Assembly: GCA_030562215.1 (NCBI GenBank)
Contig: JAUPFL010000002.1
Coordinates: 806,001 to 870,000, forward strand
Length of the DNA: 64,000 nt
Source: Peribacillus frigoritolerans
Lineage (GTDB): Bacteria; Bacillota; Bacilli; Bacillales; DSM-1321
Direction: 5' to 3'
Shown here: positions 433-60,729 of the stretch, one piece after another
How the letters are laid out: every line of letters starts with the position of its first letter
How positions within the stretch are numbered: the first letter of the stretch is position 1
Position numbers and translations under genes: made by a program
The notes under the pieces: model-generated
The model's input: only the letters and a program-made list of their open reading frames with translations
Told to the model about the DNA's origin: nothing
Database searches by the model: none

Positions 433-1703
433 TTGAATGCTATTGCTGATAAAATTTCAAGATCGTTGATGGAAAGAGAGTCATTGTAAAAAAACCGGAA
501 TTGCTGGCTCCGGCCGGCAACCTGGAAAAATTAAAAATTGCCGTCCATTACGGCGCGGATGCCGTGTTCATTGGCGGTCAGGAATATGGTCTTCGTTCGA
601 ATGCCGGCAACTTCACGTTTGAGGAAATGAAGGAAGGCGTCGAATTCGCTAGTAAGTATGGTGCCAAAGTATATGTAACCACGAATATCTTCGCACATAA
701 TGAAAATATCGATGGACTGGATGAATACCTGGAAGGTCTTCAGGAGGCTGGGGTTCATGGTATCATCGTCGCCGATCCATTAATCATCGAAACTTGTAAA
801 AGGGTCGCTCCGAACGTCGAGATCCATTTAAGCACACAGCAATCGCTATCGAACTGGAAGGCTGTTCAGTATTGGAAAGAGGAAGGCTTGGAGCGTGTTG
901 TTTTGGCACGTGAGACGAGTGCTGATGAAATCCGTGAAATGAAAGAGAAGGTCGATATCGAAATCGAGGCTTTCGTTCATGGGGCCATGTGCATTGCCTA
1001 TTCTGGACGCTGCACCCTTTCGAACCATATGACGGCGCGTGATTCGAACCGCGGCGGCTGCTGCCAGTCTTGCCGTTGGGATTATGATTTATATGAGTTG
1101 GGTCAAGACGGGGAAAAGGCTTTATTCGATAAAGAAGATGCTCCATTCGCAATGAGTCCAAAGGACTTGAAGCTGATTGAATCACTGCCGGGCATGATTG
1201 AAATTGGAATAGACAGCTTGAAAGTCGAAGGAAGAATGAAGTCCATTCACTATATCGCAACGGTTGTCAGCGTCTATCGTAAAGTGATTGATGCGTATTG
1301 TGCCGATCCGGACAATTTCAAGATTAAACAAGAATGGCTGGAAGAGCTTGATAAGTGTGCGAACCGTGAGACGGCATCATCGTTCATGGAAGGGGAAATT
1401 CCTGGGTATAAACAGCAAATGTTCGGGAATCATACCGTAAAGACTCGCTTCGACTTCGCAGGATTGGTGCTTGATTACGACGAGGAAACTAAAATCGTTA
1501 CCATGCAGCAACGCAACTTCTTCAAGCCTGGGGATGAAGTGGAGTTTTTTGGACCGGAAATCGAAAATTTCACTCAAAAAATCGGTACGATCTGGGATGA
1601 GTCAGGTAAGGAGCTGGAGGCAGCCCGCCATCCGCTTCAAATTGTCCGCATTCAAGTAGATAATAGAGTTTATGTGAACAATATGATGCGGAAGGAGAAT
1701 TGA
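433..1703 (+). CDS. trhP2: tRNA hydroxylation protein TrhP2, peptidase U32 family (one frame break)
   Basis: U32-family protein acting with TrhP1 in tRNA U34 hydroxylation. The body ([18 protein letters not shown] onwards) contains the family cysteine cluster at about residues 170-200 ([17 protein letters not shown]) and the [11 protein letters not shown] motif. The start is TTG at 433, with GGAGG about 8 nt upstream. The first ten codons (NAIADKISR) are out of frame with the rest; restoring one A near 460-463 gives [18 protein letters not shown], the expected N-terminus. Without the repair, the downstream ORF first offers an ATG-like start only inside the conserved domain. Stop overlaps the spacing to udk (1 nt gap). 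About 423 aa after repair. Confidence 0.9.
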
Positions 1704-1704
1704 C

Positions 1705-2343
1705 ATGACAAGAAAGAAACCAGTGGTCATCGGAGTTACCGGAGGGTCGGGATCAGGTAAAACAAGTGTTACCCGTTCCATTTTTGAATTCTTTCAAGGA
1801 CATTCCATCTTGATGATCGAACAAGATTATTACTATAAAGATCAAAGTCATCTGCCTTTTGAAGAACGCTTGAAAACGAACTATGATCATCCGCTTGCAT
1901 TTGATAATGATTTGCTAATCGATCACATTAACGCATTGCTGCGCTATGAAACGATAGAAAAACCCGTTTATGATTATTCGATCCATACGCGTTCGGAAGA
2001 AGTCATCACAGTTGAGCCCCAGGATGTCATCATCCTTGAAGGGATTCTTGTACTGGAGGATGAGCGCCTCCGAGACCTGATGGATATGAAGCTATATGTT
2101 GATACGGACGCAGACCTGCGGATCCTTCGCCGGATGACCCGTGATATTAAAGAACGCGGCCGTTCCATAGATTCCGTCATCGAACAATACATCAGTGTCG
2201 TCCGTCCGATGCATAATCAGTTCATAGAACCGACGAAGCGTTATGCCGACATCATCATTCCAGAAGGCGGTCAGAACCATGTGGCGATTGACCTTATGGT
2301 GACAAAAATTCAAACAATCCTTGAACAAAAGTCTTTTTTGTAA
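1705..2343 (+). CDS. udk: Uridine kinase
   Basis: Phosphorylates uridine and cytidine to UMP and CMP with ATP or GTP; cytosolic pyrimidine salvage. The P-loop [13 protein letters not shown] is at residues 9-21, followed by the family features EQDYYYKDQ and NYDHPLAFD (about 40-65) and [13 protein letters not shown] (about 135-150). Length 212 aa equals the family norm. ATG at 1705 has GAAGGAG close upstream and lies one base after the trhP2 stop, so it is probably co-transcribed with the trhP genes. Intact. Confidence 0.96.
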
Positions 2344-2465
2344 TAACATAGCATAAATAATGATAGGTGCCATTTTCCTCCGTTTATTAAAATAATCCCA
2401 TTTATTTATTGGGAAAGACTGGACAAATGTTGGAAAACGCAATACTCTATTCTTGATACAGAACG

Positions 2466-3163: not shown

Positions 3164-3247
3164 AGCGGAAAAGTGCCGCGTTAAATTTGTTCCCATAATT
3201 GTTTAAAAATTCGCACCTCGTCAACAATGGTTACCGAGGTGTATTTT

Positions 3248-4997
3248 ATGAAAAAGAAACGAATGAGGTTGCTGGCTCTTTTTTTGACCACTTTTATGCT
3301 GATGCTCATAGGCAGGCTTGCCTACATCCAACTTGTATCGACAGAATCTTTTTCAAAGCATGATGTGAACCTGTTAGAAGCAAGCGTGAATCAGCGTTCA
3401 CAGATATTAAAGATTGATGATGGACGCGGAAAGTTTTATGACAGAAATGGAGAACCGCTTGCACATGAAGAAATCCCGACGCTCGTCCTATTTCCATTTT
3501 TAAAGAAAATGACATGGCCCATAGATGAAGTGGCCTCGATAATAGGGAAATCGGAAGCGGAGTTAAAACGTGCGATAGAAGAAGCGGATGAACCTTTCGT
3601 ATTTGGCGGTGATGACCCGATAGAGTTGACGTCCAGCCAATCGAAGGCAATCAATGAATTGAAGATTCCCGGGGTCTTTGCCGTGAATGAGAAATTATAT
3701 CATGATCAAACGCCTGCAGCGCAATTGATCGGGACGACGAACATATCAGATGCGGAAAAGAAAAACGTTATCCGGACATGAACTTATCTCCTGAGACGAA
3801 AATAGGCAATACAGGACTGCAAAGGACCTTCGATGAGTTCTTGCTTTCCAATGGGGAATCGAAGCTCGTTTTTCACGTGGACGCCAGCGGAGGACCAATG
3901 TTCGGTGTCGATGTTAAATATGTGGAACCTGCAAATCCGCTTTACCCGGTGAAGGTCATGACGACGATCGATAAAGAAATTCAGGAGAAAGCGGAGAAGC
4001 TCGTCGATGAACGCGGAATAAAAAAAGGCGGCCTCGTACTGATCGATATCGAAAAAAGTGAAATCGTTGCCATGGTATCACGTCCGGCGCTTAATATAAA
4101 AGATCCGAATGGCGAAGGGGCCGTCAATATGATGCTGACTCAAAAAACGCCGGGATCCGTCTTTAAAACGGTCACGGCAGCAGCGGCCATCGATTATGAA
4201 GCCGCTAGTCCCACCCGGACATTTAATTGTAATTTGACGATAGACGGCAAAACGGATAAACAAAGGGAACTGGGCGTACTTAATTTTGAAAATAGCTTTG
4301 CCCAAAGCTGCAATAGGACGTTTGCCGAATTGTCACAGGAAATAGCAGAGAAGGATCCGGACTTTTTGGACAAATATGCAAAAATGTTAGGGCTGGTTGG
4401 TGAAACGGGCTGGCAAGGGGACGTATATCACACTGAAGTCACTCAGTTGCATCATGAACAAACAGGGAAGGTCTGGCATGATGACGATTTAAAAAAAGAT
4501 CCCAAAATGATTGCCAAAACGGCAATTGGCCAGCAGGATGTCCAAACGACACCGCTCGCGATCGCGAATATGATGGCAACGATTGCCCGCGGCGGCAAGA
4601 AGGAACAGGTCAAAGCCGTTTCAAAGGTCGAATTTAACAATAGTACGACCGTTGTCGATTTTCCCAATAAAAGTATTGGCGGCGCGACACTTTCTCCATA
4701 TACAACGATGAAGATGCAGCATCTTCTTAGGAAGGTCGTGACGGAAGAGAAAGGGACGGGCGCTTCCTTGAGAGATTTGCCTGTGGAGGTCGCCGGCAAG
4801 TCTGGAACAGCTCAGACCAATATCGAAAAAGGGGAGCTCAATAAATGGTTTGCAGGCTACTTCCCATATAAAGATCCCCAATATGCTCTTGTTACCGTAA
4901 GTTTTGAAACGAAGGAAAACAGTTCCAGCATGACGCCTCTTTTTCAGATATTGTAAAAGTCCTGTACTCCAAGGACCAGGACAAGAGCGAGAATTGA
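3248..4997 (+). CDS. pbpI: Penicillin-binding protein PbpI, class B transpeptidase (two frame breaks)
   Basis: Peptidoglycan transpeptidase, counterpart of B. subtilis PbpI (YrrR). N-terminal membrane anchor at about residues 8-25 (LLALFLTTFMLMLIGRLAYI), then a dimerisation part and the transpeptidase domain with all three motifs: SxxK in GSVFK, SxN in QSCNRT and KSGTA near the C-terminus. The start ATG 3248 has GAGGTG 8 nt upstream; an ATG at 3227 lacks one. Two one-base losses: an A in A5 at 3761-3765 (true reading DAEKKKRYPDMNLSP) and a T in T5 at 4940-4944, which truncates the tail; restored, the protein ends LFSDIVKVLYSKDQDKSEN. Next gene yrrS is its usual partner. About 583 aa after repair. 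Confidence 0.9.
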
Positions 4998-5084: not shown

Positions 5085-5791
5085 TTGGGCTCACGTTTCA
5101 ATCAGAGAGATCAAAAAAGAAAAGTAAATAAAATATATAATATTGCAATCACCATCGTTTCCATTTTAATCGTCATTGTCGCAGTCTCGATTTTCTTAAG
5201 TGATGATGGCACCGAATCAAAAAAGCCACGACTGAACCAAAGCAAGTCGCCGAGACAGAAAAGGGGAAAGTAGTGGACAAACCTTCTGGCAAAGAGGAAG
5301 AAACGGATTCAGAGAAGGAAGACGCAGTAGGTGATAGTGAAGCAACAGAAGAAGATGCCGAAAAAGAAGATAGTAAAGCAACAGAGGAAGATGCAGAAGA
5401 GAAGGCTGAAGATGATGCAGATCCAGAAAAAGCAGGAGATGCCGAACTTGTGGAAGTGGAAGGCAGCGGCGATGGCAATGTTGCGGCTACATATACAAGT
5501 GAGGGCTGGAAACCAGTAGGAACGGAGCAATCCGGGGAGCACACTACTAGCTTTGAAAAGGGCTCGGTCGATTGGAATGAAATGAGTAAGGCGATAGCAA
5601 GTGGAGCTGGAATCGATGAAGGCAACATGAAGCTATGGTGGCTGCAAAACGGCGGTTCGCCCACCACAGCAATCGGTACCGTTTCTGAAGGGGATAATCC
5701 TAAAACCTTCCGGGTTTATATTGAATGGGTGGACGGATCAGGTTGGAAACCTGTAAAAGTCGAAGAGCTGAAGACAAACGATAAAAGGTAA
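5085..5791 (+). CDS. yrrS: YrrS, DUF1510 membrane protein (one frame break)
   Basis: Single-pass membrane protein: short cytoplasmic N-terminus (MGSRFNQRDQKRKVNK), a transmembrane helix at about residues 18-40 (IYNIAITIVSILIVIVAVSI), a long Glu/Asp/Lys/Ala linker, and a C-terminal globular DUF1510 part (ATYTSEGWKPVGTEQSGEHT to the end). Start TTG 5085 with GGGAGG at 5071-5076. One A is missing in A6 at 5219-5224; restored reading is ESKKATTEPKQVAETEKGK. It follows pbpI as in B. subtilis, where YrrS is linked to PbpI function; its own activity is unknown. About 235 aa. Confidence 0.88.
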
Positions 5792-6880: not shown

Positions 6881-7570
6881 ATGAAGGTAGCCATAATCGG
6901 AGCAATGGAAGAAGAAGTTACGATTTTACGTGATAAATTGGAAGGTTTGGAGCAGGTGACCATTGCCGGTTCCGAGTTCAATACAGGCACACTGAATGGT
7001 GTCGAGGTCATTTTGCTTAAATCGGGTATCGGTAAAGTGAATGCGGCAATGTCCACTGCAATCCTGTTGGAAAAATTCAAACCGGATGCGGTCATCAATA
7101 CCGGCTCTGCCGGCGGGTATCATCCAGAACTGAATGTAGGGGATGTGGTCATATCCACGGAAGTACGGCACCATGATGTCGATGTGACGATTTTTGGATA
7201 TGAATACGGTCAAGTACCTCAGCTGCCTGCAGCTTTCACACCTGATGAAAAGCTTTTTGCAATCGCAGAAGAAGCAGCAAAGGAAATCGAGGATATACAA
7301 GTTGCTAAAGGGTTGATCGTGACGGGGGATTCTTTCATGAATGATCCTGACAGGGTTGAATTCGTCAGAGGGAAATTCTCTGGTTTATACGCGGTGGAAA
7401 TGGAAGCGGCAGCCATTGCACAGGTAGCCTTCCAATTCAAAACACCTTTTGTCATCATTCGTTCCCTTTCGGATATCGCAGGTAAGGAGTCCAATATTTC
7501 CTTTGATAAATTCCTGGAAACTGCGGCTCTTCATTCAGCGTCACTGATTTTGAAAATGGTTGAAAAATGA
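6881..7570 (+). CDS. mtnN: 5'-methylthioadenosine/S-adenosylhomocysteine nucleosidase
   Basis: Hydrolyses SAH to adenine and S-ribosylhomocysteine, and MTA likewise; cytosolic. N-terminal [13 protein letters not shown] carries the catalytic Glu (about residue 12); the catalytic Asp is in RSLSDIAGK (about 198). 229 aa. Start ATG 6881 with GGAAGAGG about 9 nt before it, 16 nt after the yrrT stop; the reading frame is open further upstream but overlaps yrrT without support. Intact. Confidence 0.95.
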
Positions 7571-7583
7571 AATGAATGGTAAG

Positions 7584-7618: not shown

Positions 7619-7669
7619 TTGCATAATCCTCATTAAATTGGTAGGATAACTATGAAAGGATGTCCGAAT

Positions 7670-9726
<2,057 letters not shown>

Positions 9727-10467: not shown

Positions 10468-10502
10468 CCGCAGGGAGAAGTGTTTTATCCTGCGGTCTTT
10501 TT
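10468..10502 (+). terminator. First of two tandem terminators before yrzI
   Basis: CCGCAGG (10468-10474) pairs with CCTGCGG (10489-10495), followed by TCTTTTT. Confidence 0.75.
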
Positions 10503-10518
10503 ATATTCTCAAAAAAAC

Positions 10519-10551
10519 CCGCAGGAGGACGTAACTTTCTGCGGCCTTTTT
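10519..10551 (+). terminator. Second of two tandem terminators before yrzI
   Basis: CCGCAG (10519-10524) pairs with CTGCGG (10539-10544), followed by CCTTTTT. The stem sequence copies the first hairpin, and the loop holds AGGAGG. Confidence 0.65.
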
Positions 10552-10592
10552 ATGCCTTTTTGTTGGGCCGCTCCCTTAAAGGAGGTGATATT

Positions 10593-10741
10593 ATGACACT
10601 GAATATGCTTTTTTCACAATCACGATTAAAATGAAAAAAATGACTGCCGAGGAATGTTTGCAACAGGAGAGAATCCACAAGATTCGAGAAGAACATCTAG
10701 ATAAAGCGATGAAGCATCGTCCTTTTTCTAAAAACATATGA
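10593..10741 (+). CDS. yrzI: YrzI-family small protein (one frame break)
   Basis: As read, ATG 10593 gives a 13-aa peptide. Restoring one T in T6 (10609-10614) gives a 49-aa protein starting MTLNMLFFTITIKMKKMTAE with a charged helical second half (KIREEHLDKAMKHRPFSKNI), which fits the YrzI small-protein family: a hydrophobic N-terminal TITIK segment followed by a Glu/Lys helix. Shine-Dalgarno AAAGGAGGTGAT directly upstream. Function unknown; the family has been listed among putative sporulation-related small proteins. Confidence 0.75.
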
Positions 10742-12646: not shown

Positions 12647-12808
12647 ATGAATCATCCACCCCTTTCCCGAGAATATATTCATCATAACATGCTTTTAATC
12701 TGGGATATAGAAAAATGTTCCGACAAAATACTGAAAATTCCTTTTAATTAGAAAAATATTGAATTAACCTCTATAATGGGATTAGTGATAAAAAGGGGGC
12801 AATGCAGG

Positions 12809-14596
12809 ATGGGATATTCTTTAACATGGGATTTGGATATCTTTTTTAAAGGAGGAAGCTCTTCTAAGGAGTTCCTGATTTTTTTAGATGAAATCAACGA
12901 GGAGGTAAAAGAATTAGACCGACTTGTAAGCAATTTCAATCCGGTAGGAAATGATGAAATCAGTTTAATCCAGGCATTGGATCTTTTTAAAAATACAAAT
13001 ATGAAATCTTCGCAGGCAGGTGCTTTCATTGGATGCCTGGAAGCTCAAAATGCGCAGGATAAAAAGGCTGGACAGCTACGGGTCAAACAAATGAAGATAG
13101 TCGCTTCACTAAAAATGGTGTTAAGCAAGTTGGATGAAAAGTTGATACAGCTTGATGATGCATTTTTAAAAAAATCCTCGAAAAAGAACCATTGAATGAA
13201 ATTAAATTCGTATTGAATGAACGTCGGGAAAAGGCAAAGGAAAAGCTTTCCGTGAAAGAAGAATCATTAATCACCCAATTGGCCATGGACGGTTTCGAAG
13301 GTTGGAGCCAAATGTATGATACGATCGTCGGTTCAATGACCATCCCTTATAAGGGTGAAAAGCTTTCAGTTGGCCAAGCGGCGAATAAATTTTCTGATCC
13401 TGATGAAAGGGCCCGGAAAGAATTATTTACTGCGTGGGAACAGGCTTGGGAGGAAAAAAGTGACCTTTTTGCCCGGACTTTGAACCACTTGGCTGGCTTC
13501 CGTCTCAGTGTGAATGAAAAAAGGGGCTGGGATGATATTTTGAAAGAGCCTCTTGAAATAGGGAGGATGAAAAAGAAACCCTCGAAAGCATGTGGAATGT
13601 AATTGCCGATCATAAGGAACCGCTTGTGAGGTTTTTAAAAAGGAAAGCGGAATTACTGGATATGGATAAATTAAGTTGGGCGGATCTGGATGCACCGCTC
13701 GCTGTTACAGCAGAGTCCAAAGTAATGGATTATCAAGAAGGTGCAGATTTCATCATACAGCAATTCTCTAAGTTCGGCTCTCAATTGGCGAACTTCACCC
13801 AAAAGGCTTTTGAAGACAGCTGGATTGAAGCTGAGGACAGGCCAGGTAAGAGACCAGGCGGTTTTTGCACCGGCTTTCCATTAAATAAGCAGTCAAGGAT
13901 TTTCATGACGTATTCGGGCACCCCATCCAATGTATCGACATTGGCTCATGAATTGGGACATGCATTCCATTCTTATGCGATGAGGGATATCCATCCATTG
14001 AATCGGTCATATGCAATGAATGTGGCTGAAACCGCCTCCACTTTTGCTGAAATGGTCGTAGCGGATGCAGCTGTGAAGGAAGCGGCCAGTGAGGAAGAAA
14101 AGCTGGTGCTTTTAGAAGATAAAATTCAGCGTTCCGTGGCATTATTGATGAATATCCATGCCCGCTACTTATTCGAAACAAGGTTTTATGAAGATAGGAA
14201 GCAAGGATATGTCAGTGCCGAACGGTTGAGTGAACTGATGGTCGATGCACAAAAGAAGCTTATGGCGATGCTTTGAGTGATTATAATCCAACGTTCTGGG
14301 CTTCAAAGCTCCATTTTTATATTACAGGAGTGCCATTTTATAATTTTCCGTACACATTCGGATACTTATTCTCATTAGGCATATACGCGAATGCCCTGAA
14401 AGAACCTGCAGGATTCGAAGAAAAATATATCGCCCTATTAAAGGATACCGGTTCCATGAAGGTCGAGGATTTGGCGGAGAAACATTTAGGAGTCGATTTA
14501 AAGACCCGGGATTTTTGGGAAGAAGCAGTTAATGCCTGTATGGAGGATGTAGAAGAATTCATGCGTTTGACCGACCCATTAGTCCGAAAAGCATAA
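12809..14596 (+). CDS. M3-family oligoendopeptidase (three frame breaks)
   Basis: Cytosolic zinc metallopeptidase of the PepF/M3B type, which trims oligopeptides. The HEXXH zinc motif HELGHAFHSY is at about residues 381-390, and the third ligand Glu lies in NVAETASTFAE about 25 residues later. Family N-terminal domain starts at about residue 110. Three lost A residues: A7 13168-13174 (restored FLKKILEKEPLNEI), A5 13570-13574 (restored MKKETLESMWNVI) and A4 14251-14254 (restored AQKEAYGDALSDY). About 596 aa repaired. Start ATG 12809 with AGGGGG upstream. Monocistronic by position. Confidence 0.9.
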
Positions 14597-15336: not shown

Positions 15337-16121
15337 TTGTTTCAGTCTTTGTATCGCGTTCTTATTGAACTGACGAATGGTCAGTATTCATCAGGTTTAT
15401 TAAAACACTTTAGCCAATCTCGTTGGAGCAGGCCCTTAATTTTATTTTATGTAAAAACATTCAACCTTAATCAAGAGGAATTTGGTAAGGAGTTAAAAGC
15501 ATATACCAATTTGCACGAGCTATTTACAAGGCAGTTAAAGGCGGACGCGAGGCCAATTACGGCAGTTCCGTCTGCGGTAGCTTGTCCCGTGGACGGTGTT
15601 CTTGAGGATTCAGGGGAGATACGCGCTGATAAAAAGATCGTCGTTAAGGGAAAGGTATATTCAATGGAGGAAATGCTCGGGGATGAGCTTTTTTGGAAAA
15701 GTACTTAGGCGGCAAATATCTCGTGTTATACTTAAGCCCGAGTCATTACCATAGGATCCATGCTCCAATCAAGGGTTCCGTAGTCAAACGTTGGACCCTT
15801 GGAAGGAAATCATATCCCGTTAATAAATGGGGGATGAAATATGGAAAAGAGCCTTTATCAAAAAATTATCGGACAATAACTGAACTTCAAAATGAAGCGG
15901 GAAATCTGGCAATGGTGAAAGTCGGGGCCATGTTCATAAATTCGATCGTCATTACTGATGAATCGGATGAATTGGAAAAAGGGCAGGAATTTTCTTATTT
16001 CAGCTTTGGGTCCACAGTCGTGCTTCTTTTTGAAAAAGGAAGTTTTGAACTTGAAGGGAACATATCCATTCCCGCAGATGTCCGTGTAGGTGAAACAATC
16101 GGATTCATGAGAGCCGTCTAA
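15337..16121 (+). CDS. psd: Phosphatidylserine decarboxylase precursor (one frame break)
   Basis: Converts phosphatidylserine to phosphatidylethanolamine at the membrane. The self-cleavage motif FGST is near residue 228 (FSYFSFGSTVVLLFEKG); the Ser becomes the pyruvoyl group. The conserved CPVDG (about 88) and HYHRIHAP are present. Start TTG 15337 with GGAGTGG 6-7 nt upstream gives MFQSLYRVLIELTNG, the family N-terminus. One T is lost in T6 (15689-15694); restored reading DELFLEKYLGGKYLV. About 261 aa. AT-rich gap to pssA (15202-15336) should hold both promoters. Confidence 0.92.
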
Positions 16122-16780: not shown

Positions 16781-17301
16781 ATGCTTAAATTATTTTTGCC
16801 GAGTGAACATGTTAAAAGCATTTTTAATATAGATCCTCAAGAATTGAAAAAAGAGGGATTAAGGGCGTCATTACCGATTTGGATAATACTCTCGTTGAAT
16901 GGGACAGGCCAACTGCCACCCCCGATTTAATCAAATGGTTCGACAATATGCGGGAACATGGGATTTTAGTGACGATTGTGTCCAATAATAATGAAAATCG
17001 GGTTCGGGCTTTTTCCGATCCGCTTCACATTCCGTTCATCTTCCAGGCCAGAAAACCGATGGCAAGGGCTTTCCATAAAGCCCGTAAGACAATGGGGCTG
17101 AAATTAGAAGAAACGGTGGTAATCGGCGATCAGTTATTGACGGATGTATTGGGAGGGAACAGAGGCGGATTTCATACGATCTTAGTGGTCCCTGTCGCAC
17201 AAACCGACGAATTCAGAACAAGGATCAATCGTTATTTTGAAAGAAAGATCATGGCGTTTTTTAAACGAAAAGGAATGATAGAATGGGAGGATCAAAATTG
17301 A
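16781..17301 (+). CDS. yqeG: YqeG, HAD-family phosphatase (one frame break)
   Basis: HAD IIIA-type hydrolase; catalytic motif I DLDNTLVEWD near residue 32, motif II SNNN (about 67), motif III with GDQLLTDVLGGN (about 115). Substrate unknown. ATG 16781 with GAGGTG upstream. One G is missing in GGG 16855-16857; restored reading KKEGIKGVITDLDNTL. About 173 aa. First gene of the yqeG-to-yqeM operon and overlaps the start of yqeH by 4 nt. Confidence 0.9.
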
Positions 17302-18406
17302 ACAATCATCAAGAATTAGTGTGCATCGGCTGCGGTGTGAAGGTCCAGACTGAAGATCCGAACGAGTTGGGCTTTGCCCCTAAATCGGCTCTGGAAAAAG
17401 AAAGCATCGTTTGTCAGCGCTGCTTTAAATTGAAACATTATAACGAAGTTCAGGATGTATCCTTAACAGACGATGACTTCTTGAAAATCTTGAATAAAGT
17501 AGGCGAAACCGACTCTTTAATCGTCAAAATCGTCGATATTTTTGATTTCAATGGAAGCTGGCTGCCTGGCCTTCATCGATTTGTAGGAAGAAATGATGTT
17601 CTTCTGATCGGAAATAAGGTCGATTTATTGCCTAAATCCGTAAAACCGAACAAGTTGATCAATTGGATGAGGCAATCGTCCAAGGAATTGGGTCTTAACC
17701 CGGTCGATGTCCTGCTTGTCAGTGCGGAAAAGGGAAAGCACATACTTGAAGCGGCGGATGCGATCGAGCGGTATCGCAGAGGAAAAGATGTCTATGTGGT
17801 GGGCTGTACGAATGTAGGAAAATCGACTTTCATCAACCGTCTTATAAAAGAAGTGAGCGGTGAAAGTGATATCATCACGACTTCCCACTTCCCTGGGACT
17901 ACTTTGGATATGATCGAAATTCCTTTGGATGATGAACAGGCATTGATCGATACACCAGGAATCATTAATCATCATCAAATGGCTCACTATGTGGACAAAC
18001 GGGACTTCAAGGTGATTATGCCGAAAAAGGAAATCAAGCCGAGAGTGTACCAACTGAATGAAGGGCAGACGCTATTTTTCGGAGGGCTCGCCAGGTTGGA
18101 CTATGTTTCAGGCGGAAGGCGTTCATTGACTTGCTACCTTTCGAATGAATTGAATATTCACCGTACGAAACTGGAAAAAGCCGATGAATTGTATAAAAAC
18201 CATGCCGGGGAATTACTGACGCCTCCACGGCCAGAACAAATCGAGGAGTTTCGAAGCTGATTCCACATGAATTCTCCTTGAAAGATGGTAAAATGGATAT
18301 TGTGTTTTCTGGTCTTGGCTGGGTGACGGTCAATGAGCCAGGAGCGAAAATCGTCGCACATGTTCCAAAGGGCGTCAATGTGATCGTTCGCAAATCATTA
18401 ATCTAA
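17298..18406 (+). CDS. yqeH: Ribosome biogenesis GTPase YqeH (one frame break)
   Basis: Circularly permuted GTPase needed for 30S assembly. N-terminal zinc finger CIGCG...CQRC (about residues 10-45); then G4 NKVD (about 108) comes before G1 GCTNVGKST (about 170) and G3 DTPG (about 215), the hallmark of the family. C-terminal RNA-binding part follows. Start TTG 17298 with GGGAGG 7 nt upstream. One T is lost in TTT 18249-18251; restored tail runs EEFSKLIPHEFSLKDGKMDI and ends VNVIVRKSLI at TAA 18404-18406. About 369 aa. Confidence 0.93.
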
Positions 18407-18426: not shown

Positions 18427-19268
18427 ATGAAAAAGATATATGGGGTAATGGGAGATCCAATTGCACATTCGATGTCACCGGACATTCATAATGATGCATT
18501 TGAAAAAGAAAATATAGAAGCGGTTTATCACCATTTTCATGTGACGAAAGAAGGTTTGAACGATGCCGTGAAAGGCATGAAAGCCCTTGGTATAGAAGGG
18601 TTTAACATCACGATTCCTCATAAGACTTCAATCATCCCTTTCCTGGATGAAGTGGATGAACTGGCCCTTGCAATCGGGGCTGTAAATACGGTTGTTAACA
18701 AAAATGGTCGGTTTATAGGGTATAATACAGACGGAAAAGGATTTTTCAAATCTTTATGCGATGAAATATCAGGTGACATCAAGGCTAAAAAACGTTAGTG
18801 ATCGGAGCGGGCGGTGCTGCGCGTGCGATTTATTTTACCCTCGTGAAAGAAGGGGTAAAGCAAGTTGATATTGCAAACCGGACAAAGGAAAGAGCGGCCC
18901 AGCTTGTTTCTGATTGCCCATATGATAAAGTATCGAAGGCACTCTCGATTATCGAAGCGGAAGAAAGCTTATCACAATATGATTTAATCATCCAAACGAC
19001 TTCTTCTGGAATGAGTCCTGAATTGGATCATTCACCGTTAAAGGTCGACCAGCTTAAAACCGGTGCAATTGTCAGTGACATCATCTATAACCCTCTGCAA
19101 ACCAAGCTTCTGCGTGAAGCTGGGGAAAAAGGGGCCGAAACGCAAAATGGTCTGGGGATGTTCATCAACCAGGCCGCGCTCGCATTTGAGATATGGACAG
19201 GCATTATGCCGGATACAGCAAGAATGACAGATATTGTCTTGAACAAACTAGGAGGTAACACATGTTAA
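18427..19268 (+). CDS. aroE: Shikimate dehydrogenase (one frame break)
   Basis: Reduces 3-dehydroshikimate to shikimate with NADPH in the chorismate pathway. Shikimate-binding SMSP (about residues 15-18), catalytic Lys in NITIPHK (about 66) and Asp in NTDG (about 102), NADP loop GAGGAARA (about 127). One A lost in A6 18787-18792; restored reading IKAKKTLVIGAGG. About 280 aa. Overlaps yqeI by 7 nt. Confidence 0.94.
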
Positions 19269-23470: not shown

Positions 23471-23547
23471 ATGATTGAATATGCTACACAAATGGACAGG
23501 AAGAGGGTAAAATTGAAGAAAATCATTTAGTGGTAAGGGGATACAAC

Positions 23548-36477: not shown

Positions 36478-38424
<1,947 letters not shown>

Positions 38425-40726: not shown

Positions 40727-40772
40727 AGTTACTCTGATTATCGGGTTTTTTGATAGTCAGAGTACCTTTTTT
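40727..40772 (+). terminator. Terminator after prmA
   Basis: ACTCTGATTATC and GATAGTCAGAGT pair across GGGTTTTTT and are followed by ACCTTTTTT. Confidence 0.85.
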
Positions 40773-40856
40773 AGCTTGAATCTTTGCACGGCTTGCATTC
40801 TGGATTCCTGACTGTTAGCCTGTGAGTTTTTTAGACTAGACGAAGTAGGTGGCAGT

Positions 40857-44325: not shown

Positions 44326-45257
44326 TTATTTTTTTAAGAGTGGCCGATGCACCAAAAGAATGAGGTTGGAGAATTGCCGTGCGAATGGCAAGACGGCCAA
44401 AGAGGTCAAGATATTGAAAATGACACTGGCATGCGCGAGCTGTGTGCCTTTGTTTTCGGTGAAAAAGGCAGCAGTCCTTTCCAGGATGTCCACAAAAGGC
44501 AGGAATGCGGCAACCCCGATGACGTTCAGCCAAATATGTGCATAAGCTGTGAAGGCAGCTTGTCTGCCAGAACCGATGCTGGCCATGTATCCGGTGATGC
44601 AGGTGCCTATATTCGATCCGAGCATGATGATGATTGCCGAGGAGACAGATAACTCCCCATTCATCAAAAAGCTCATGGCAATCCCGATGGTTGCCGAACT
44701 GGAGTGGATGAGTGCCGTCAATAATATCCCGGCAAATAGGGCATAACTCATATGGCCCTCTATGTAATGGATGAGCGTTTGTATGGATGGATAGGCTGCA
44801 ATCGGTGTCGAAAGCGTTTTAAAACCGCTCATCGCCGCGAAGATGGATGATATTCCGATCAGGGACATCCCTATGCTTCTCGGTAATGCTTTTGGCATGA
44901 AGCAAAGGAAAGCGCCGCTTACGGCACCGGGAATGATCCAACGATCCAAAGAGAACGTCATGAACTCTGCTGTAAAGGTGGAGCCGATATTCGTTCCCAG
45001 AATAATCCCGATTGTTTGCGGGAATGTTAAGCTACCTGCGGAAACGAGGCCGACCGTCATGACCATGACCGCCGAACTGCTCTGCAGGATCCGGTAAAGA
45101 TGGTTCCGGCCAAGAAGCCTTTCCATGGCTTATCCGTAACCTTTGAGAGAAAAGTTTTTAATGCTGCACCGGACATATTGAACAGTCCGATTCGTAAAAC
45201 TGACATACCCGCCAAAAATATCGCAATGAATAAAATGAATAAAAATAGCTCATGCAT
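44326..45257 (-). CDS. yqeW: Na/Pi-cotransporter family protein YqeW (one frame break)
   Basis: Type II Na/phosphate symporter family membrane protein. Two inverted repeats each with the QSSS-type signature: GILQSSSAVMVMTVG and LIHSSSATIGIAMSF; about eight helices. Start ATG 45257 has AGAGGTG upstream; a GTG at 45266 is an alternative. One base lost at CC 45091-45092 (plus strand); restored reading FTGILQSSSAVM. About 311 aa. Encoded against its neighbours. Transported ion not proven. Confidence 0.88.
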
Positions 45258-45397
45258 GACTGTCACCTCTTAGTAAGCTTATGGCCCATCAACGGGAGAC
45301 ATGCTATAAATTGGATTTTCATGCAAGTTGAATCATCGTTTAGTGAAAAATTATGATAATAACATGATTATATTCAAAATAAGTTTGATTTTATTGG

Positions 45398-45426: not shown

Positions 45427-45492
45427 TGTTTAGTACATGTATAACATGTTGACAACTTGAGTTAGTGTGTTGTTTTCGGAGGGAGGAAAGAG

Positions 45493-45666
45493 ATGTCTAA
45501 AACCGTCGTTCGTAAAAACGAATCGCTTGAAGATGCTCTTCGTCGTTTCAAACGTACTGTATCTAAAGCAGGATCGCTTCAGGAAGCTAGGAAGCGTGAA
45601 TTTTATGAAAAACCAAGCGTAAAACGTAAGAAAAAGTCTGAAGCTGCAAGAAAACGTAAATTCTAA
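45493..45666 (+). CDS. rpsU: 30S ribosomal protein S21
   Basis: 57 aa: [20 protein letters not shown], then [20 protein letters not shown], then [17 protein letters not shown]. Full match to bacterial S21, located near the anti-Shine-Dalgarno end of 16S rRNA. Very strong binding site GGAGGGAGG upstream. Strong promoter 67 nt before the start. Intact. Confidence 0.97.
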
Positions 45667-46415: not shown

Positions 46416-47738
46416 TTGAAAATTTGGCGTTATTTATCTGTACTCTTATTTGGATTGCTGTTCACCATGTCTTCTTTTGGGGGTTCGACGGTATCTGCAA
46501 ACGAGAAGATCGTTTACCATGTACCAATTGAAGAGACGGTGGAAAAGGGGCTCTCGGCCTTTTTGGAACGCGCACTGACCACTGCTGAAGCAGCTGATGC
46601 AGATCTTGTCGTTTTCGAGGTGAATACCCCTGGAGGTGCTGTGGATGCAGCAGGGGAAATTGCAAAGTTACTGTCCGATTCACCAATCAAGACAGTTGCC
46701 TACGTCAATAACAGGGCTTTATCTGCTGGGGCATACATTTCTCTAAGTGCAGATGAGATCTATATGGTTCCGAGTGCCACCATGGGATCTGCGGCTGTTA
46801 TTGATTCAACGGGGAACGCTGCAGGTAAGAAAGCGCAATCTTATTGGTTGGCTGCCATGAAAACTGCTGCTGAACAAAATGGGCGTGATCCCATATACGC
46901 CCAGGCGATGGCGGATGTTGACATCGATCTACCAGAATATGGAGCTGAAAAAGGGAAGTTGCTGACATTTACAGCCGAACAGGCAAAAAAGGCTGGATAT
47001 AGTGAAGGCACCGTCTCTGGGAAAGCGGAGCTGTATAGTATACTTGGAGTTGAAGATGCTGATATTCGGTCAATCGAAGAAAGCTTTCCTGAGAAACTTG
47101 CCCGCTTTTTGACCAACCCGATCGTCGTTCCCATTTTATTGACGATAGCGGGAATCGGGATTGTGATGGAATTGTTTTCACCTGGTTTTGGAATTCCGGG
47201 GTCATTGGAATCACCAGTCTTGTCTTATTCTTCTATGGTCACCTTGTCGCCGGTATCACCGGATACGAATCGTTAGCGATGTTCATCATTGGGGTCATTC
47301 TCGTACTAATTGAATTTTTATCCCAGGGGGATTATCGGGCTGCTCGGGTTTACAGCGATAGTGGGGAGTCTGTTCCTTGCGACAGGTGATCCGGTCCATA
47401 TGACGATCTCCTTGCTAATTGCGGTCACCGTATCCATTTTGGTATTCATCCTACTTGTAAAGGTGTTTGGAAAACAGATGAAATTTTTCAGGAAAATGAT
47501 ATTAACCGATGCAACAAAAACGGAACAAGGATATGTCAGCAATCCGAATCGTTTGGATTTATTAGGTGCAGAAGGGAAGGCCCTAACAGATTTGAGGCCT
47601 TCAGGTACAGCTTTGGTCAAAGAAGAAAGAGTGGATGTCGTGTCCGAAGGAAGTTTTATTTCCAAAGGTTCGACAATCATTATCGTTAAAGTTGAAGGAT
47701 CAAGGGTAGTCGTCCGGGAAATTCCGGATTCAAATTAA
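46416..47738 (+). CDS. yqeZ: NfeD-family membrane serine protease YqeZ (three frame breaks)
   Basis: NfeD1b-type protein: signal peptide (about residues 1-28), ClpP-like serine protease domain with [11 protein letters not shown] (about 70) and the nucleophile region [10 protein letters not shown], four-helix membrane part, then a C-terminal OB-fold NfeD domain. Lost bases: G in GGGG 47198-47201, T in T5 47315-47319 and G in G5 47326-47330; restored reading [16 protein letters not shown]. About 441 aa. TTG 46416 with AAAGGGGG upstream. Partner of FloA in the membrane; acts in envelope-stress defence (family knowledge). Confidence 0.92.
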
Positions 47739-49722: not shown

Positions 49723-50907
49723 ATGAAAAACCAATGGACAAACTATTATACAGGCTATGTAAAGGTGAAGGCTTATGGAAAAGGTGCAGAACGGTTGATT
49801 AATATGCTGACGAGAAGGGGGCTTCATATCTGGGATGTGAAGCGTGTCGGAAGTGAAGCCCTGATTTTCCATATGGATATCAGGGATATCCCCAAACTCC
49901 GTCAGGTCATGCGTAAGAGTGATTGTAAAGTAAAATTCATGCAGGGAAAGGGTTTCCCTTTCCTGATGAAGAGAGTCATGAAAAACAGCGGGTTTTTAGC
50001 GGGGATGATCGCTTTCCTGCTTTGCATATTCGTGCTTTCCAATATGGTATGGGGCATTGAGGTTCAAGATGCCAAACCGGCAACCGAGCATGCCATCCGG
50101 AAAGAATTGGACAAGATGGGCGTGAAGATCGGTAAAGTGCAATTCTTTGTTGATGATGTGGATACGATTCAGCGTAAGCTGTCGGACCGGATTGGTGCAT
50201 TGACATGGGTGGGGGTTGAGCTAAAGGGAACGACATATCATTTTCGGGTTGTGGAAAAACGGCAGCCTAAAGAGGTCGAGAAAACATCTCCACAGAATTT
50301 GGTAGCATCAAAAAAGCGATCATCACTGATATGTTCGTTGAAAAAGGACAATCTATTGTTAATGTGAATGATTATGTAGGAAAAGGACAACTTCTTGTAT
50401 CAGGGTTGATTGGAAAAGAGGATAAACAGGAAATTGTATCCGCAAAGGAGTAATAAAAGGGAAAACGTGGTATAAAGCGAAAGTGGAGGTTCCGTTAAAA
50501 ACCAAGTTTTCTGTTTTTAACGGGGATGAAACGAGCAAGCACTTTTTGAAAATGGGGGGCTTTTCCCTTCCGGTATGGGGTTTCAAGGATCCGGGATATG
50601 AAAAACAGGAAAAGGAAACGACAGTGAGGCCTTTTCACTTTCTTCAATGGGAATTGCCTATTTCTTATAAACAAGTGACCTTAAGGAGCAAGGAAGATAT
50701 TGTACGAAGTTATACGGAGAAAGAAGCCGTGGAGGAAGGCAGGAAAATGGCTAAAGCGGAATTAAAAAACATTTAGACGAAGAGGATGAAATCGTCGAGG
50801 AAAAAATTTTGCACGAAAGCATGGAGAATGGTAAAGTAAAATTATCTATACATTACCAAGTTATTGAAGATATAGCGATTGGACAGCCAATCATTCAAGG
50901 AGACTAA
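49723..50907 (+). CDS. yqfD: Sporulation protein YqfD (three frame breaks)
   Basis: Membrane protein with a soluble N-terminal part, one helix (about residues 87-107, [20 protein letters not shown]) and a long extracytoplasmic C-terminus. Lost A in A6 50310-50315 (restored [16 protein letters not shown]), lost G in GG 50447-50448 (restored [13 protein letters not shown]) and lost A in A6 50764-50769 (restored [16 protein letters not shown]). Stop at 50905-50907 after PIIQGD. About 395 aa. ATG 49723 with GGGAGG upstream. Confidence 0.91.
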
Positions 50908-50910
50908 CGA

Positions 50911-51872
50911 ATGGCAGATGATGTGAAAGTAATTAAGCTCGAAATCGAATCACCCAATGAGGCGATCGCTTTATTGGGCAATGGAGATTCAAATGTAAAA
51001 GTGCTCGAAGAGGAACTTGGCATTTCCGTCATAACCCGAGGCGAAGCGGTGAGTGTTGCCGGGGATATCGAGCGGGTAACGATGGGGAGGAAATCCTCAA
51101 GGCATTATTGACAGTGGTCAGAAAAGGAATTGCGATCAGTTCCAGAGATGTGCTTTATGCAATTGAATTGGCAAGAAAAGGCACATTGGAGTATTTCGGT
51201 GAATTATATGATGAGGAAATCGCTAAAACGGCTAAGGGGAAATCCATTAAAGTCAAAACAATCGGGCAGAGATACTATATCCAGGCAATAAAGAAACAGG
51301 ATCTTGTATTTGGAATTGGGCCTGCCGGAACCGGGAAGACCTATCTTGCTGTAGTGATGGCCATCAATGCTTTGAAAAATGGACATGTTAAACGGATCAT
51401 CCTGACACGGCCTGCCGTCGAAGCAGGGGAGAGCCTTGGCTTTCTGCCTGGTGATCTGAAGGAAAAGGTAGATCCTTATCTAAGGCCGTTGTATGACGCT
51501 CTCCATGACCTCCTAGGGATGGAACAGACGCAAAGGATGATAGAGCGCGGAACGATCGAAATAGCTCCCCTGGCTTATATGAGGGGGCGTACGCTTGAAG
51601 ATGCCTTTGTCATATTGGATGAAGCCCAGAATACGACGGAAGCCCAAATGAAGATGTTCTTGACCAGGCTTGGTTTCGGATCGAAAATGGTCATTACGGG
51701 AGATCGGACCCAGATTGACCTTCCAAAAGGTATGAAGTCAGGTCTTGTCCGGGTAGAAGAGATATTGAAGAATGTTAAAGGCCTTTCCTTTGTTTATTTT
51801 GAACAAAGTGATGTAGTAAGACATCCGCTTGTCGCCAAAATCATCACTGCTTACGAGCAGGCGAAGTCATAA
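50911..51872 (+). CDS. phoH: PhoH-family ATPase (one frame break)
   Basis: PhoH/YbeZ-type P-loop ATPase, often next to ybeY and era and linked to RNA metabolism. N-terminal part (about residues 1-110), Walker A GIGPAGTGKTYLA (about 132), Walker B FVILDEAQNTT (about 230), GDRTQIDLP. One G lost in GGGG 51084-51087; restored reading VTMGEEILKALLTVVRKGIA. About 320 aa. ATG 50911, 3 nt after yqfD. Confidence 0.93.
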
Positions 51873-52061: not shown

Positions 52062-54224
52062 TTGAATCGTATCCAGAAATTTTTCACTCAAATAAAAGGG
52101 CTGTTGGTCCATCGCTTTTTCAAGTGCTTTTGTTCATCATTCTTGGTTTGTTTGCGTATGGTTTGATGTTCTCCAATGTTAAGCCGGAAAGGGTACAGGT
52201 AGAGCTTTTTAAGCCTGCTGAACAAACAATCCGTTCAACCAAGACTGTGGAAGATACCTATAAGACGGAACAGGAAAAAGAAGAGATTTCAAAACAGGTT
52301 GCGGATGTTTATTCTTTAAAAAAGAATATGCCAAAAATAAAGTCGATCTGATTTCATCCATTTTCGATTCAGCAATTGAGGTGAATAAAGAAACGGACAC
52401 CGATGAAGATCATAAAGAAGATGAGGATAAAAAAGAGACCGTAAAGACGGATGCTCAAAAAGTTTCCATACTAAAAGAAAAATTGACCGATGAAGTGAAT
52501 AAAAATATCGAGGAATCCGTTTTCCTAGCATTAGTGCAGGCGGATGAAGATGAGTTGAAAATAGCGAAGGATTCAACCATTACGGCAGTGAATAATGTGA
52601 TGAGCTCCCGAATCGCTGCAAGTGACGTTGAAAATGCCAAGAAAAAGGTAGTAGAGGAATTGGGTTATATGAGCATTAGCGGCGAAATGAAAAAGCCTCT
52701 ACTTCCCTTGCACGTACGGCAATCATCCAGAATGTATTTTTCGATAAGGACAAAACCGAGGAACAGCGAAGGAAAGCGGTTGAAAGCGTGGAGCCAATCA
52801 GGATCCTTCAAGGTCAGATTATCGTTGAAGAAAATCAATTAGTGGACAGGGATGTATATAGGCAGCTTGAACTGGCAGGCTTCTTGAATACGGAGTCTAC
52901 CATATACCCGTATATCGGCCTGCTGTTATTCATATTCCTGACTTTTGCCGCTTTTTATTACTATTTCTACTATTCCATTTCCAAAAAGGATAACAAGTAC
53001 AATCAGTTATTGATCTTCAGTCTTGTCTTTATCCTTTCAATGGCTACCATGAAAACGGTCAGCATTCTGGCAGACCTGAAAAACTCGAACCTGGAATACA
53101 TTTTCCCGGGTGCCATGGCGGCGATGCTCATCAAGATATTATTGAATGATAAGTTAGCGGTAGCAATGATCATATTGTTAGGTTCGTATGGTACGATTAT
53201 ATTTAATGGTGATACCCCTGGAAATCTGGATTTCTCGATGGGGCTGTATATCATTTTCGGGGGATTGACGGCAATCATCATTCTATCCAGGCCCAATTTC
53301 AAATCAAAGGTGCTGGTAGCGGGGCTGCTATTGTCTTTAATCAATATGGCATTCGTTTTTTCGCTCATCTTTATTATGGACAGCCATTATACTAGAATGG
53401 AGTACCTATATTATGCTGCTGCTGCCATGGGTTCTGGAGTGGGTTCAGCCGTTTTGACTATGGGACTGCTACCGTTTTTCGAGGCTGGTTTCGGGATTTT
53501 ATCATCGATTAAGCTTATCGAGCTCGCGAATCCCAATCATCCGCTATTGCGGAGGATCTTGATTGAGGCTCCGGGGACATATCATCATAGTGTAATGGTC
53601 GCCAATTTGGCGGAATCCGCTTGTGAAGCCATCGGCTCGAATGGATTGCTGGCAAGGGTCGGCAGTTATTACCATGATATCGGTAAAACGAAACGGCCGC
53701 ACTTCTTCATCGAAAATCAGATGAGTGAAGAGAACCCGCATGATCGGCTGCAGCCGGAAACGAGCAGGGATATCATCATTGCCCATGCAGTAGATGGCGG
53801 GGAGATGCTGCGCAGTCACAAATTCCCGAAAGAGATTGTGGATATTGCAGAGCAGCATCATGGAACCACATTATTGAAATTTTTCTACCACAAGGCAAAA
53901 AAACAGGATGAGTCCACACTCGAAGCGGCCTACCGATATCCAGGGCCGAGGGCGATAATGAAGGAAGTAGCCGTCATCGGCATAGCGGATAGTGTGGAAG
54001 CTGCAGTGAGATCGATGAAGCACCCAACTCCGGAGAAGATTGAAGAGCTGGTAAGTTTCATCATTCAGGACAGGATTTCTGATGGTCAATTTGATGAATG
54101 TGACATCACTATGAGAGAATTGAGTATCGTGAAGCATTCCTTATGTGAATCGCTGAATGGTATCTTCCACTCCAGGATTGAATATCCGGAGCCGGATAAA
54201 TTAGGACAGAAGGTGAAAGAATGA
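52062..54224 (+). CDS. pgpH: Cyclic-di-AMP phosphodiesterase PgpH (three frame breaks)
   Basis: 7TM-7TMR-HD protein (YqfF) that degrades c-di-AMP. One N-terminal helix, extracytoplasmic 7TMR-HDED domain, seven transmembrane helices, and a cytoplasmic HD domain with [16 protein letters not shown] and [14 protein letters not shown]. Lost G in GG 52106-52107 (restored [14 protein letters not shown]), A in A6 52318-52323 (restored [15 protein letters not shown]) and A in A5 52690-52694 (restored [15 protein letters not shown]). About 721 aa. TTG 52062 with AGGAGG upstream. Overlaps ybeY by 4 nt. Confidence 0.92.
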
Positions 54225-56412: not shown

Positions 56413-56512
56413 TTAACAAAATTTACGCATCATGAAAGTTTGGAAAACGGTCAAGCTAATCATATGGTCGGATATTAATATTGCTAGTTAAAAATGAAAG
56501 GTGGGCTTTTAA

Positions 56513-56656
56513 ATGTTGGATTTTACCTGGGAATTATTCACTGAAACAGGTAATGTGGACACCTATTTGCTGTTTAAGGAGATAGAAGTCGAGAGACAGG
56601 AAGGACACTTGGGAATGAATGATGAGCTAGCAGAAATTGATTTTCCTGTTTCATAG
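56513..56656 (+). CDS. yqzL: YqzL small protein
   Basis: 47 aa: MLDFTWELFTETGNVDTYLL, then FKEIEVERQEGHLGMNDELA, then EIDFPVS. Matches the YqzL family found between era and recO. AAAGGTGGG upstream. Function unknown. Confidence 0.9.
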   Translation: MLDFTWELFTETGNVDTYLLFKEIEVERQEGHLGMNDELAEIDFPVS

Positions 56657-57489: not shown

Positions 57490-57704
57490 ATCAAAATAAG
57501 AAGATTGCGTTGATGGAAAAGAGTATCTGTCATTCTCCATAAAAAGCGAACCCGGGACGGTGGAAGCCGGGATATGGATTTACAGGGAAGGGCGTTCCGG
57601 AGCATGTTGCTTTGAAAAGAGGCCGTTTAATAAACGGCAATTAGGGTGGAACCGCGGGTATACTCTCGTCCCTATGCATTTCGCATAGGGACGGGAGTTT
57701 TTTG
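57490..57704 (+). promoter_or_regulatory. T-box riboswitch (glycyl-tRNA) of glyQS
   Basis: AG-box GATGGAAAAGAGTA (57513-57526), the GGTGGAAGCC apical motif of Stem I (57559-57568), a Stem III hairpin GCCGTTTAATAAACGGC (57622-57638), the T-box AGGGTGGAACCGCG (57643-57656) and a terminator CGTCCCTATGC/GCATAGGGACG plus TTTTTT (57665-57704). Uncharged tRNA-Gly should stabilise the antiterminator. GGC at 57591-57593 is a candidate specifier codon, but I could not place it with certainty. This fills the 332-nt gap before glyQ. Confidence 0.95.
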
Positions 57705-57774
57705 TTTGCCAAAATGTAATGAGTTCCGACCATTAATCTTAAAAAAGCCGTTTTAAATAACCTGGAGGTGTACG

Positions 57775-58674
57775 ATGAATATTCAAAATATGATTTTAAC
57801 GTTACAAAAGCATTGGTCTGAACAAGGCTGCATATTGATGAATGCTTATGATGTCGAGAAAGGGGCAGGAACGATGAGCCCATACACGTTCCTGAGAGCC
57901 ATTGGACCGGAGCCATGGAGCGTCGCTTACGTAGAACCTTCCCGCCGTCCTGCTGACGGTCGTTATGGTGAGAACCCTAATCGACTTTATCAGCATCATC
58001 AGTTCCAAGTGATCATGAAGCCGTCGCCTGACAATATCCAAGAGTTATATTTGGATTCATTACGCGCTTTAGGGATAAATCCGCTTGAGCATGATATTCG
58101 CTTTGTGGAGGACAACTGGGAAAATCCATCACTAGGGTGTGCCGGTCTCGGTTGGGAAGTGTGGCTTGATGGAATGGAAATCACGCAATTTACCTATTTC
58201 CAACAAGTGGGCGGTCTTGAGTGTAAACCGGTTTCCGTGGAAATTACATACGGGATCGAACGTCTCGCCTCTTACATTCAAGATAAGGAAAACGTATTTG
58301 ACCTAGAATGGACAGATGGATTCACAGTTCGGGATATATTCGGTCAGCCGGAATACGAACATTCGAAATATACGTTCGAAACCTCCGACCTTGATATGCT
58401 GTTTCAGCTTTTCACGATGTATGAAAAGGAAGCGCATCGCCAAATGGAAGAAGGACTTGTACATCCTGCATATGATTATGTTTTGAAATGTTCACATACA
58501 TTTAACCTTTTGGATGCCAAAGGTGCCATCTCGGTGACGGAAAGAACGGGTTATATAGCCCGGTGCCGTAACTTAGCGCGCGTAAGGTTGCCAAAACCTT
58601 CTATGAAGAGCGGGAAAAAATTAGGCTTCCCGATCCTGAAAGTGAAAGGGGAGAATACAAATGAGCAAGCGTGA
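57775..58674 (+). CDS. glyQ: Glycyl-tRNA synthetase alpha subunit (paired frame errors near the end)
   Basis: Class II catalytic subunit of the alpha2-beta2 glycyl-tRNA synthetase. Starts [20 protein letters not shown]; motif [20 protein letters not shown] (about residues 53-72) and [18 protein letters not shown]. Near the C-terminus about twelve codons are out of frame: the first error lies in 58560-58585, the second is an extra A in A6 at about 58616-58621. The corrected reading is [11 protein letters not shown] before [11 protein letters not shown]. About 299 aa, overlapping glyS by 14 nt. ATG 57775 with GGAGGTG upstream. Confidence 0.93.
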
Positions 58675-60729
58675 TTTGTTATTGGAGATTGGATTGGAAG
58701 AGCTGCCTGCCCGTTTTGTGACAGCATCAATGAAACAGTTGTCAGATAAAGTGCAGCAATGGCTAACGGAAAAAGCGATTGAATTCGGAACGGTTGAAGC
58801 TTTTTCCACACCAAGACGTTTGGCCGTATTGGTGAAGGACGTGGAAGAATCCCAAAAGGATATCGAAGAAGAAGCAAAAGGTCCGGCCAAGAAAATCGCT
58901 TTGGATAGCGAAGGCAACTGGTCTAAAGCTGCATTGGGATTCGTCAGGGGTCAAGGCATGACTTCAGAGGACATTTATTTTAAAGAACTCAAGGGTGTGG
59001 AATATGTCCATGTGAATAAATTCATAAAAGGACAGCAGACCGTTCAGCTTTTAACGGAGCTTGCTGAAATCATCAGTGGCATGACGTTCCCGAAAAATAT
59101 GCGCTGGGCCAATCAGGAGCTCCGCTTCGTCCGTCCGATTAAATGGCTGATTGCCTTATTCGGCAATGAAATAGTGCCATTCAGCATTGCTGATGTGGAA
59201 ACCGGCCGTGAAACAAAAGGTCACCGTTTCTTGGGCGACAGCGCCATCATCGAGCAGCCGGAACGGTACGAAGATGCGCTGAAAGAACAATATGTAATGG
59301 CGGATCCAGAAAAGCGCCGGCAAGTTATATTGGATCAGATTAAAGAGCTGGAACAGGAGAAAGGCTGGATCATCCCTGTCGATGAAGATCTGCTAGAAGA
59401 AGTAAATAATTTGGTAGAGTATCCAACGGTGTTATTTGGACATTTTGAAGAAGAATTCCTTGAGCTTCCTGCAGAGGTACTTATCACATCAATGAAGGAA
59501 CATCAACGTTATTTCCCTGTTAAAGATCAGGACGGGAACCTGCTTGCTTACTTTGTAACCGTGCGTAACGGCGATGACCGCCATTTGGATAAGGTTTCTA
59601 AAGGTAATGAAAAAGTATTGCGTGCCCGCTTATCGGATGCAGCATTTTTCTATAAAGAAGATCAGAAAAAGAGATTTCGGATGCTTTGAAAAAGCTTGAC
59701 AGCATCGTTTATCATGAAGAAATCGGTACATTAGCCGAGAAAACTGCCCGGGTAACTGAAGTGACCGGTGCCCTTGCGGATGCTTTGAATTTAAAGGCGG
59801 AAAAAGAAATGGCGCTTCGTACAGCGGCAATTGCCAAGTTCGATTTGGTAAGTAACATGGTTTATGAATTCCCTGAATTGCAAGGGTATATGGGTGAAAA
59901 ATATGCTCTCTTGAAAGGGGAGGCCAAAGAAGTGGCCGCGGCTATCAATGAACATTATATGCCAAGGCATGCGGATGATAATGTACCGCCTTCAATCATT
60001 GGAGCGGTAGTGAGTTTAGCTGAAAAAATTGATACTTTGTCTTCATTCTTCGCTATTGGCGTTATTCCGACAGGTTCCCAGGATCCTTACGCGTTAAGAA
60101 GGCAGGCGAGCGGTGTCGTCCAAATTCTAGCTGAGAAGAAATGGAATATTTCATTAGAGGAGCTTATTGCTTTAGGTCTTAAAGGACTGGAATCAAAAGG
60201 CATCTTAAAACGTGATCTTGAAGAAGTTAAAGCGGATATGTTCACATTCTTTAAGGCCCGTGTCAAACACCTGCTTCAAGAACAGCAAATCCGTTACGAT
60301 TTGATTGACGCAGTTTTGCACAATGAGATCGGTTATATCCACTCCATCGTGGAACGGGCACATGTATTGGATGCTAAAAAAGACGAAGCAGGCTTTAAAG
60401 AAAGCATGGAAGCTTTAAGCCGGGTCATGAACATTGCCGTAAAATGTGACAATAAGGTGACAGTAGACCCTGGTGCCTTTGAAAATGATCAAGAAAATGC
60501 GTTATACGTCAAATATCAAAAAGTGGCAAAGCGTTATAATGAATCTGAAGATGAGAATGAGCGGTTTGAACAGCTTGTTTCGCTTCAATCGGAAATAGAG
60601 CCATATTTCGAGAATACAATGGTCATGGCAGAAGATGAAGCGATCCGCAACAACCGTTTATCCTTAATGAAGGAAATCAGTGATTTGGTTGCAGGTTTTG
60701 CTGCCATGAATAAAATCATCCTTACATGA
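58661..60729 (+). CDS. glyS: Glycyl-tRNA synthetase beta subunit (one frame break)
   Basis: tRNA-binding subunit of glycyl-tRNA synthetase with HD-like and anticodon-binding domains. [20 protein letters not shown] at the start; [12 protein letters not shown] (about 281) and [20 protein letters not shown] (about 475) are conserved. One A lost in A5 59666-59670; restored reading [20 protein letters not shown]. About 690 aa. Essential, so the break is a sequence error. Confidence 0.95.

Follow-up and report, generated by a model that had tools for sequence, protein, structure and literature searches.

Frame breaks in the window

The stretch analysed here, referred to as the window (G000:C2:806001-870000, 64,000 bases), belongs to G000, a Peribacillus assembly of 5,375,132 bases in three contigs, and many of its genes appear broken by single missing bases (Table 1). 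Automated annotation is likely to report losses in the competence genes comEA, comEB and comEC, and to list core enzymes and the sporulation genes gpr, spoIIP and yqfD as lost in this Peribacillus. Here, we show that these breaks are very probably consensus errors of a long-read assembly made without correction by accurate reads, a finding that matters for the use of the G000 record and not for biology.

We compared the window with collinear 80-kb stretches of four Peribacillus relatives, G001, G004, G006 and G008, whose identity to it in long aligned blocks was 96-97%, 95%, 91-95% and 89-91%, respectively. The relatives serve as controls and are not error-free standards, since some of the losses specific to them may be real. 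A search for relatives among plasmids found none. Between two aligned blocks, the segment at ~43890-44320 gave no alignment with G001, G006 or G008 and may be a spacer peculiar to the G000 strain.

Multiple alignment of positions 26-63976 with the four relatives yielded 80 events specific to the window, comprising 65 one-base losses, one two-base loss, five one-base gains and nine others; the corresponding one-base losses numbered 7 in G001 and 10 in G004. A stricter pairwise test, requiring the same gap against at least three of the four relatives, retained 50 one-base losses, seven one-base gains and four other gains, vs losses/gains of 4/8 in G001, 4/8 in G004, 19/19 in G006 and 21/26 in G008. 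The excess of losses over G001, the nearest relative, far exceeds chance (50 vs 4, P ~4 × 10−11). The initial annotation, made from the sequence alone, had described about fifty breaks at one per 1.2 kb, nearly all of them losses in homopolymers. Its number and density agree with ours (one per 1.0-1.3 kb), and 48 of the 65 losses do lie in runs of at least four bases; "nearly all" overstates the case, as the other 17 occur in runs of at most three bases and a few gains are present. Its ranking of the lost bases (A, G, T, C) did not hold, since the bases lost, as read in G001, were A (28), T (19), G (10) and C (8).

A frame-changing event fell in 41 of 69 conserved open reading frame (ORF) models, with one event counted in two overlapping genes. 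Leaving out three antisense models (two had no family match and one, of 63 amino acids, was not searched) reduced the number to 38. When event positions were held against the extents of the family matches, eight of the 38 proved to have events solely at an end, within a leader or inside a small ORF lacking a family match (the U32-family gene, the MTA/SAH nucleosidase gene, lepA, dnaK, rpsU, ccpN, ppsR and the ORF at 56494-56656). About 30 are broken inside, in line with the around thirty split genes previously claimed. The genes earlier named as essential all carry losses: nadD (2), holA (2), an HDIG-domain gene given as pgpH (3) and glyS (1). In Bacillus subtilis, nadD, holA and glyS are essential, whereas pgpH by itself is dispensable. 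In glyQ and prmA, paired events cancel in frame, so that the ORF keeps its full length and the short run of wrong residues inside it would escape any pseudogene check.

Table 1 Features of the window that carry events, with positions counted from its first base.
Feature	Position	Strand	Events
U32 family gene	433..1703	+	1 loss at residue 8, before family match; best match TrhP, below cut-off
Penicillin-binding protein 2-like gene	3165..4997	+	2 losses; one 2-base gain near start, possibly in leader; match below cut-off
Conserved ORF without family match	5085..5791	+	1 loss near start
MTA/SAH nucleosidase	6881..7575	+	1 loss in last codons
Cysteine synthase family gene	7652..8591	+	2 losses near 3' end
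Cystathionine gamma-lyase	8593..9726	+	3 losses
ORF, YrzI-like small protein in 3' part	10480..10731	+	3 losses; match below curated cut-off
M3 family oligoendopeptidase	12776..14596	+	3 losses
Phosphatidylserine decarboxylase	15337..16121	+	1 loss
YqeG phosphatase	16781..17301	+	1 loss
YqeH GTPase	17283..18406	+	1 loss, TCCNR context (see text)
aroE	18427..19268	+	1 loss
nadD	19564..20131	+	2 losses
comEA	22836..23470	+	1 loss, before family match
comEB	23467..24106	+	3 losses, first before family match
comEC	24125..26430	+	1 loss
holA	26919..27993	+	2 losses, first before family match
gpr spore endopeptidase	28622..29739	+	1 loss
spoIIP	29826..31023	+	2 losses
Conserved ORF without family match	31045..31367	+	1 loss
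lepA	31384..33377	+	2 losses: one before family match, one just past its end
hemW	33458..34617	+	1 loss
hrcA	34742..35768	+	2 losses
dnaK	36478..38326	+	1 loss in last codons
dnaJ	38490..39741	+	1 gain
prmA	39778..40719	+	One loss and one gain, 19 bases apart, cancelling in frame
rsmE	40750..41608	+	2 losses, first before family match
Na/Pi symporter	44326..45266	-	1 loss
rpsU with leader	45467..45666	+	1 loss before family match; coding part looks intact
SppA/ClpP-fold serine protease-like gene	46416..47738	+	2 events (1 and 2 bases lost); match below cut-off
Sporulation protein yqfD	49723..50907	+	3 losses
phoH-like gene	50911..51872	+	1 loss
HDIG-domain gene (initially annotated as pgpH)	52062..54224	+	3 losses
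53-amino-acid ORF without family match	56494..56656	+	1 gain near start
T-box leader upstream of glyQ-glyS	57501..57676	+	1 loss
glyQ	57775..58674	+	Gains of 2 and 1 bases, 39 bases apart, cancelling in frame
glyS	58661..60729	+	1 loss
ccpN and ppsR	60891..62366	+	1 loss in overlap: last codon of ccpN, before ppsR family match

Run length, coding state and substitutions

The losses respond strongly to run length. Scoring only runs on which all four relatives agree, which left a further 20, 7, 1 and 1 runs of lengths four to seven with changed bases unscored, we found one base missing from the window in 0 of 463 four-base runs, 3 of 177 five-base runs, 10 of 49 six-base runs and 5 of 10 seven-base runs, in one of two runs of eight and in the single run of nine. 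A larger sample of G000 (524 kb, with alignments to both of two relatives over 446 kb) gave loss rates of ~0.3, 1.7, 7.6, 20 and 34% at run lengths of four to eight; these denominators are approximate and, like those of the motif counts below, refer to the whole 524 kb.

Loss density in the window did not differ between coding (53 in 54,985 bases) and non-coding DNA (12 in 8,966 bases; P = 0.28), although the coding mask includes a few doubtful ORF models. In the four relatives pooled, by comparison, 6 of 51 specific one-base losses were coding and 45 non-coding. Purifying selection is thus absent on the losses of the window. Specific substitutions showed no excess, at 494 in the window vs 602 in G001 and 770 in G004.

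Losses elsewhere in the assembly

Over the 446 kb, G000 carried 334 one-base losses vs 74 and 95 in the two relatives, together with 65 one-base gains (vs 54 and 118) and 7,157 specific substitutions (vs 9,609 and 15,300). Outside the window, contigs C1 and C2 both show a clear excess of losses. Other stretches of G000, 244 kb in all, also had fewer long A/T and G/C runs than the relatives, with 9 A/T runs of at least eight bases per 100 kb vs 12-26. The completeness of G000 is 87.46%, vs 99-100% for the 12 congeners listed, and this low score probably reflects the same consensus errors.

Ribosomal RNA (rRNA) genes provide an internal standard, as G000 carries many copies. Its thirteen 5S genes ranged from 114 to 117 bases, seven of them being shorter than 116, and alignment revealed shortening of C or G runs that two copies from G001 and one from G004 have in full. 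Lengths were 1547-1552 bases in eleven 16S copies (both G001 copies: 1551) and 2927-2932 bases in eleven 23S copies (both G001 copies: 2933); no length difference was found between the two G001 copies. Altogether, these 22 G000 genes carried 61 losses and nine gains. Twenty-four of the losses fell at positions short in no more than three copies. A further 26 came from four positions that five to nine copies lacked, and the remaining 11 from a single position absent throughout. A twelfth operon, on the minus strand (L096) and analysed separately, had six losses. Such a comparison of rRNA copies within a genome offers a simple, read-free test for assemblies of this kind.

Origin of the losses

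The initial annotation had attributed the breaks to an uncorrected long-read consensus, and four lines of evidence bear this out: the response to run length, the parity of coding and non-coding DNA, the unraised substitutions beside an excess of losses also found elsewhere, and the disagreement among rRNA copies. The apparently broken genes are almost certainly not a real biological feature and no sign of gene decay; the cells of the strain presumably carry intact genes. Under the proposed mechanism, the base caller or the consensus step would tend to drop one base from a homopolymer, more often the longer the homopolymer, and single bases would thus be missing genome-wide, from genes, spacers and rRNA alike.

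Nanopore consensus sequences under-call the length of runs, and the platform is likely to have been nanopore of an older, R9-like kind. Consensus error from another long-read platform, such as PacBio at low coverage, is an unlikely source, even though three large contigs are compatible with any long-read method and the errors of PacBio circular consensus reads, as described in PMC12007338, are likewise mostly homopolymer indels. The excess of losses over gains, together with the context-bound losses outside runs, would fit a nanopore consensus better.

Several observations weigh against long-read consensus error as we describe it. Losses in runs of three or fewer bases make up 17 of 65 in the window and 123 of 334 in the 446-kb sample. 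The sole C3 stretch compared for losses (L060) shows a modest excess (13 vs 7 and 9), and another C3 stretch (L059) shows no depletion of runs. At 23S alignment column 1224, an A present in both G001 copies is absent from all twelve G000 copies examined, which may be a true difference or, alternatively, a fully systematic error. Finally, at the context T-CC-N-purine (TCCNR), 22 of 3,059 sites had lost a C, vs 1 of 3,796 sites on the other strand of the assembly, and these one-strand losses count against the interpretation because they are not expected from simple homopolymer error.

The TCCNR context accounts for 22 of the 23 CC losses in the 446-kb sample. At T-CC-N-pyrimidine, losses occurred at 0 of 3,216 sites and at 4 of 4,947 on the opposite strand. 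For TCCNA, the counts were 18 of 1,502 vs 1 of 1,818 on the opposite strand (P ~7 × 10−6, a value that is too small as the motif was picked after seeing the data). Within the window, CC losses in the TCCNR context lie at positions 457 and 18251.

We also considered whether the strand of genes or of replication underlies the pattern. A 133-kb stretch of C1 with negative (opposite) GC skew, aligned to a single relative, again had its TCCNR losses on the plus strand (3 of 967 sites, vs 0 of 776 on the minus strand), yet the numbers are small. Open frames of at least 600 nucleotides in 380 kb of C1 cover 144,885 nucleotides of the minus strand vs 60,897 of the plus strand. Judged likewise against one relative, C2 had 21 plus-strand and three minus-strand cases. 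The minus-strand rRNA operon had no losses at CC, a single operon being too few to decide. An origin in gene or replication strand was rejected, as the C1 counts, small as they are, point to the assembly strand instead. This suggests that the TCCNR pattern is a bias of the consensus step and not of the cell.

There is a slight chance that part of the non-homopolymer losses marks a chemically modified base, in which case the assembly would hold a hidden footprint of the strain's DNA modification. Nanopore consensus errors linked to methylation are known, and PMC6591954 and PMC12506013 describe, as in G000, a short non-homopolymer context with a raised error rate; in contrast to those errors, only 22 of the 3,059 TCCNR sites are hit in G000, and nearly all on one strand.

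Defects in mismatch repair cause slippage in runs, and a real mutator lineage, e.g., one without mismatch repair that accumulates one-base slippage losses, would agree with the rise of losses with run length. We nevertheless consider a mutator highly improbable and reject it, as substitutions should be raised beside slippage, whereas specific substitutions in G000 are not raised in the window or in the 446 kb; moreover, losses far outnumber gains, and nadD, glyS and the rRNA copies are hit.

Slippage rescue of frame breaks is known in some endosymbionts, and A and T runs do hold most of the losses. Even so, genuine gene decay, or genuine frame breaks made good by slippage at runs during transcription or translation, has a negligible probability and is rejected: essential genes and rRNA are not spared (nadD, glyS and the rRNA copies carry losses), losses are equally frequent in coding and non-coding DNA, the genome is full-sized (5.38 Mb), the remaining runs are mostly 5 to 7 bases long, shorter than slippage runs generally are, and frameshift rescue cannot explain losses of the same kind in rRNA, which has no reading frame, while decay of nearly every rRNA copy would presumably be lethal.

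Comparison with other long-read assemblies

Consensus error of the kind proposed for G000 has close counterparts. In the Homopolish study (PMC8011154), nanopore-only assemblies resemble G000 in that losses exceed gains after some polishers, errors are mostly in homopolymers and false pseudogenes are many. There, certain polishing steps increase losses, and 151 to 5,298 pseudogenes are found in R9.4 genomes when homologs are not used in polishing. The true genome was known in that study, whereas for G000 relatives and rRNA copies have to stand in for it. PMC9262707 states that R10.4 resolves most runs below 11 bases and that its gain over R9.4.1 is largely in homopolymers.

The long-read assemblies treated with Kastor are likewise similar, as one-base indels split genes and losses follow long runs; according to PMC12007338, correction cut the share of pseudogenes from 23.3 to 5.6% and, in the example given there, raised completeness from 92.2 to 99.7%. 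The non-homopolymer contexts reported there (CCCA and TCCA) gain an A, whereas TCCNR in G000 loses a C.

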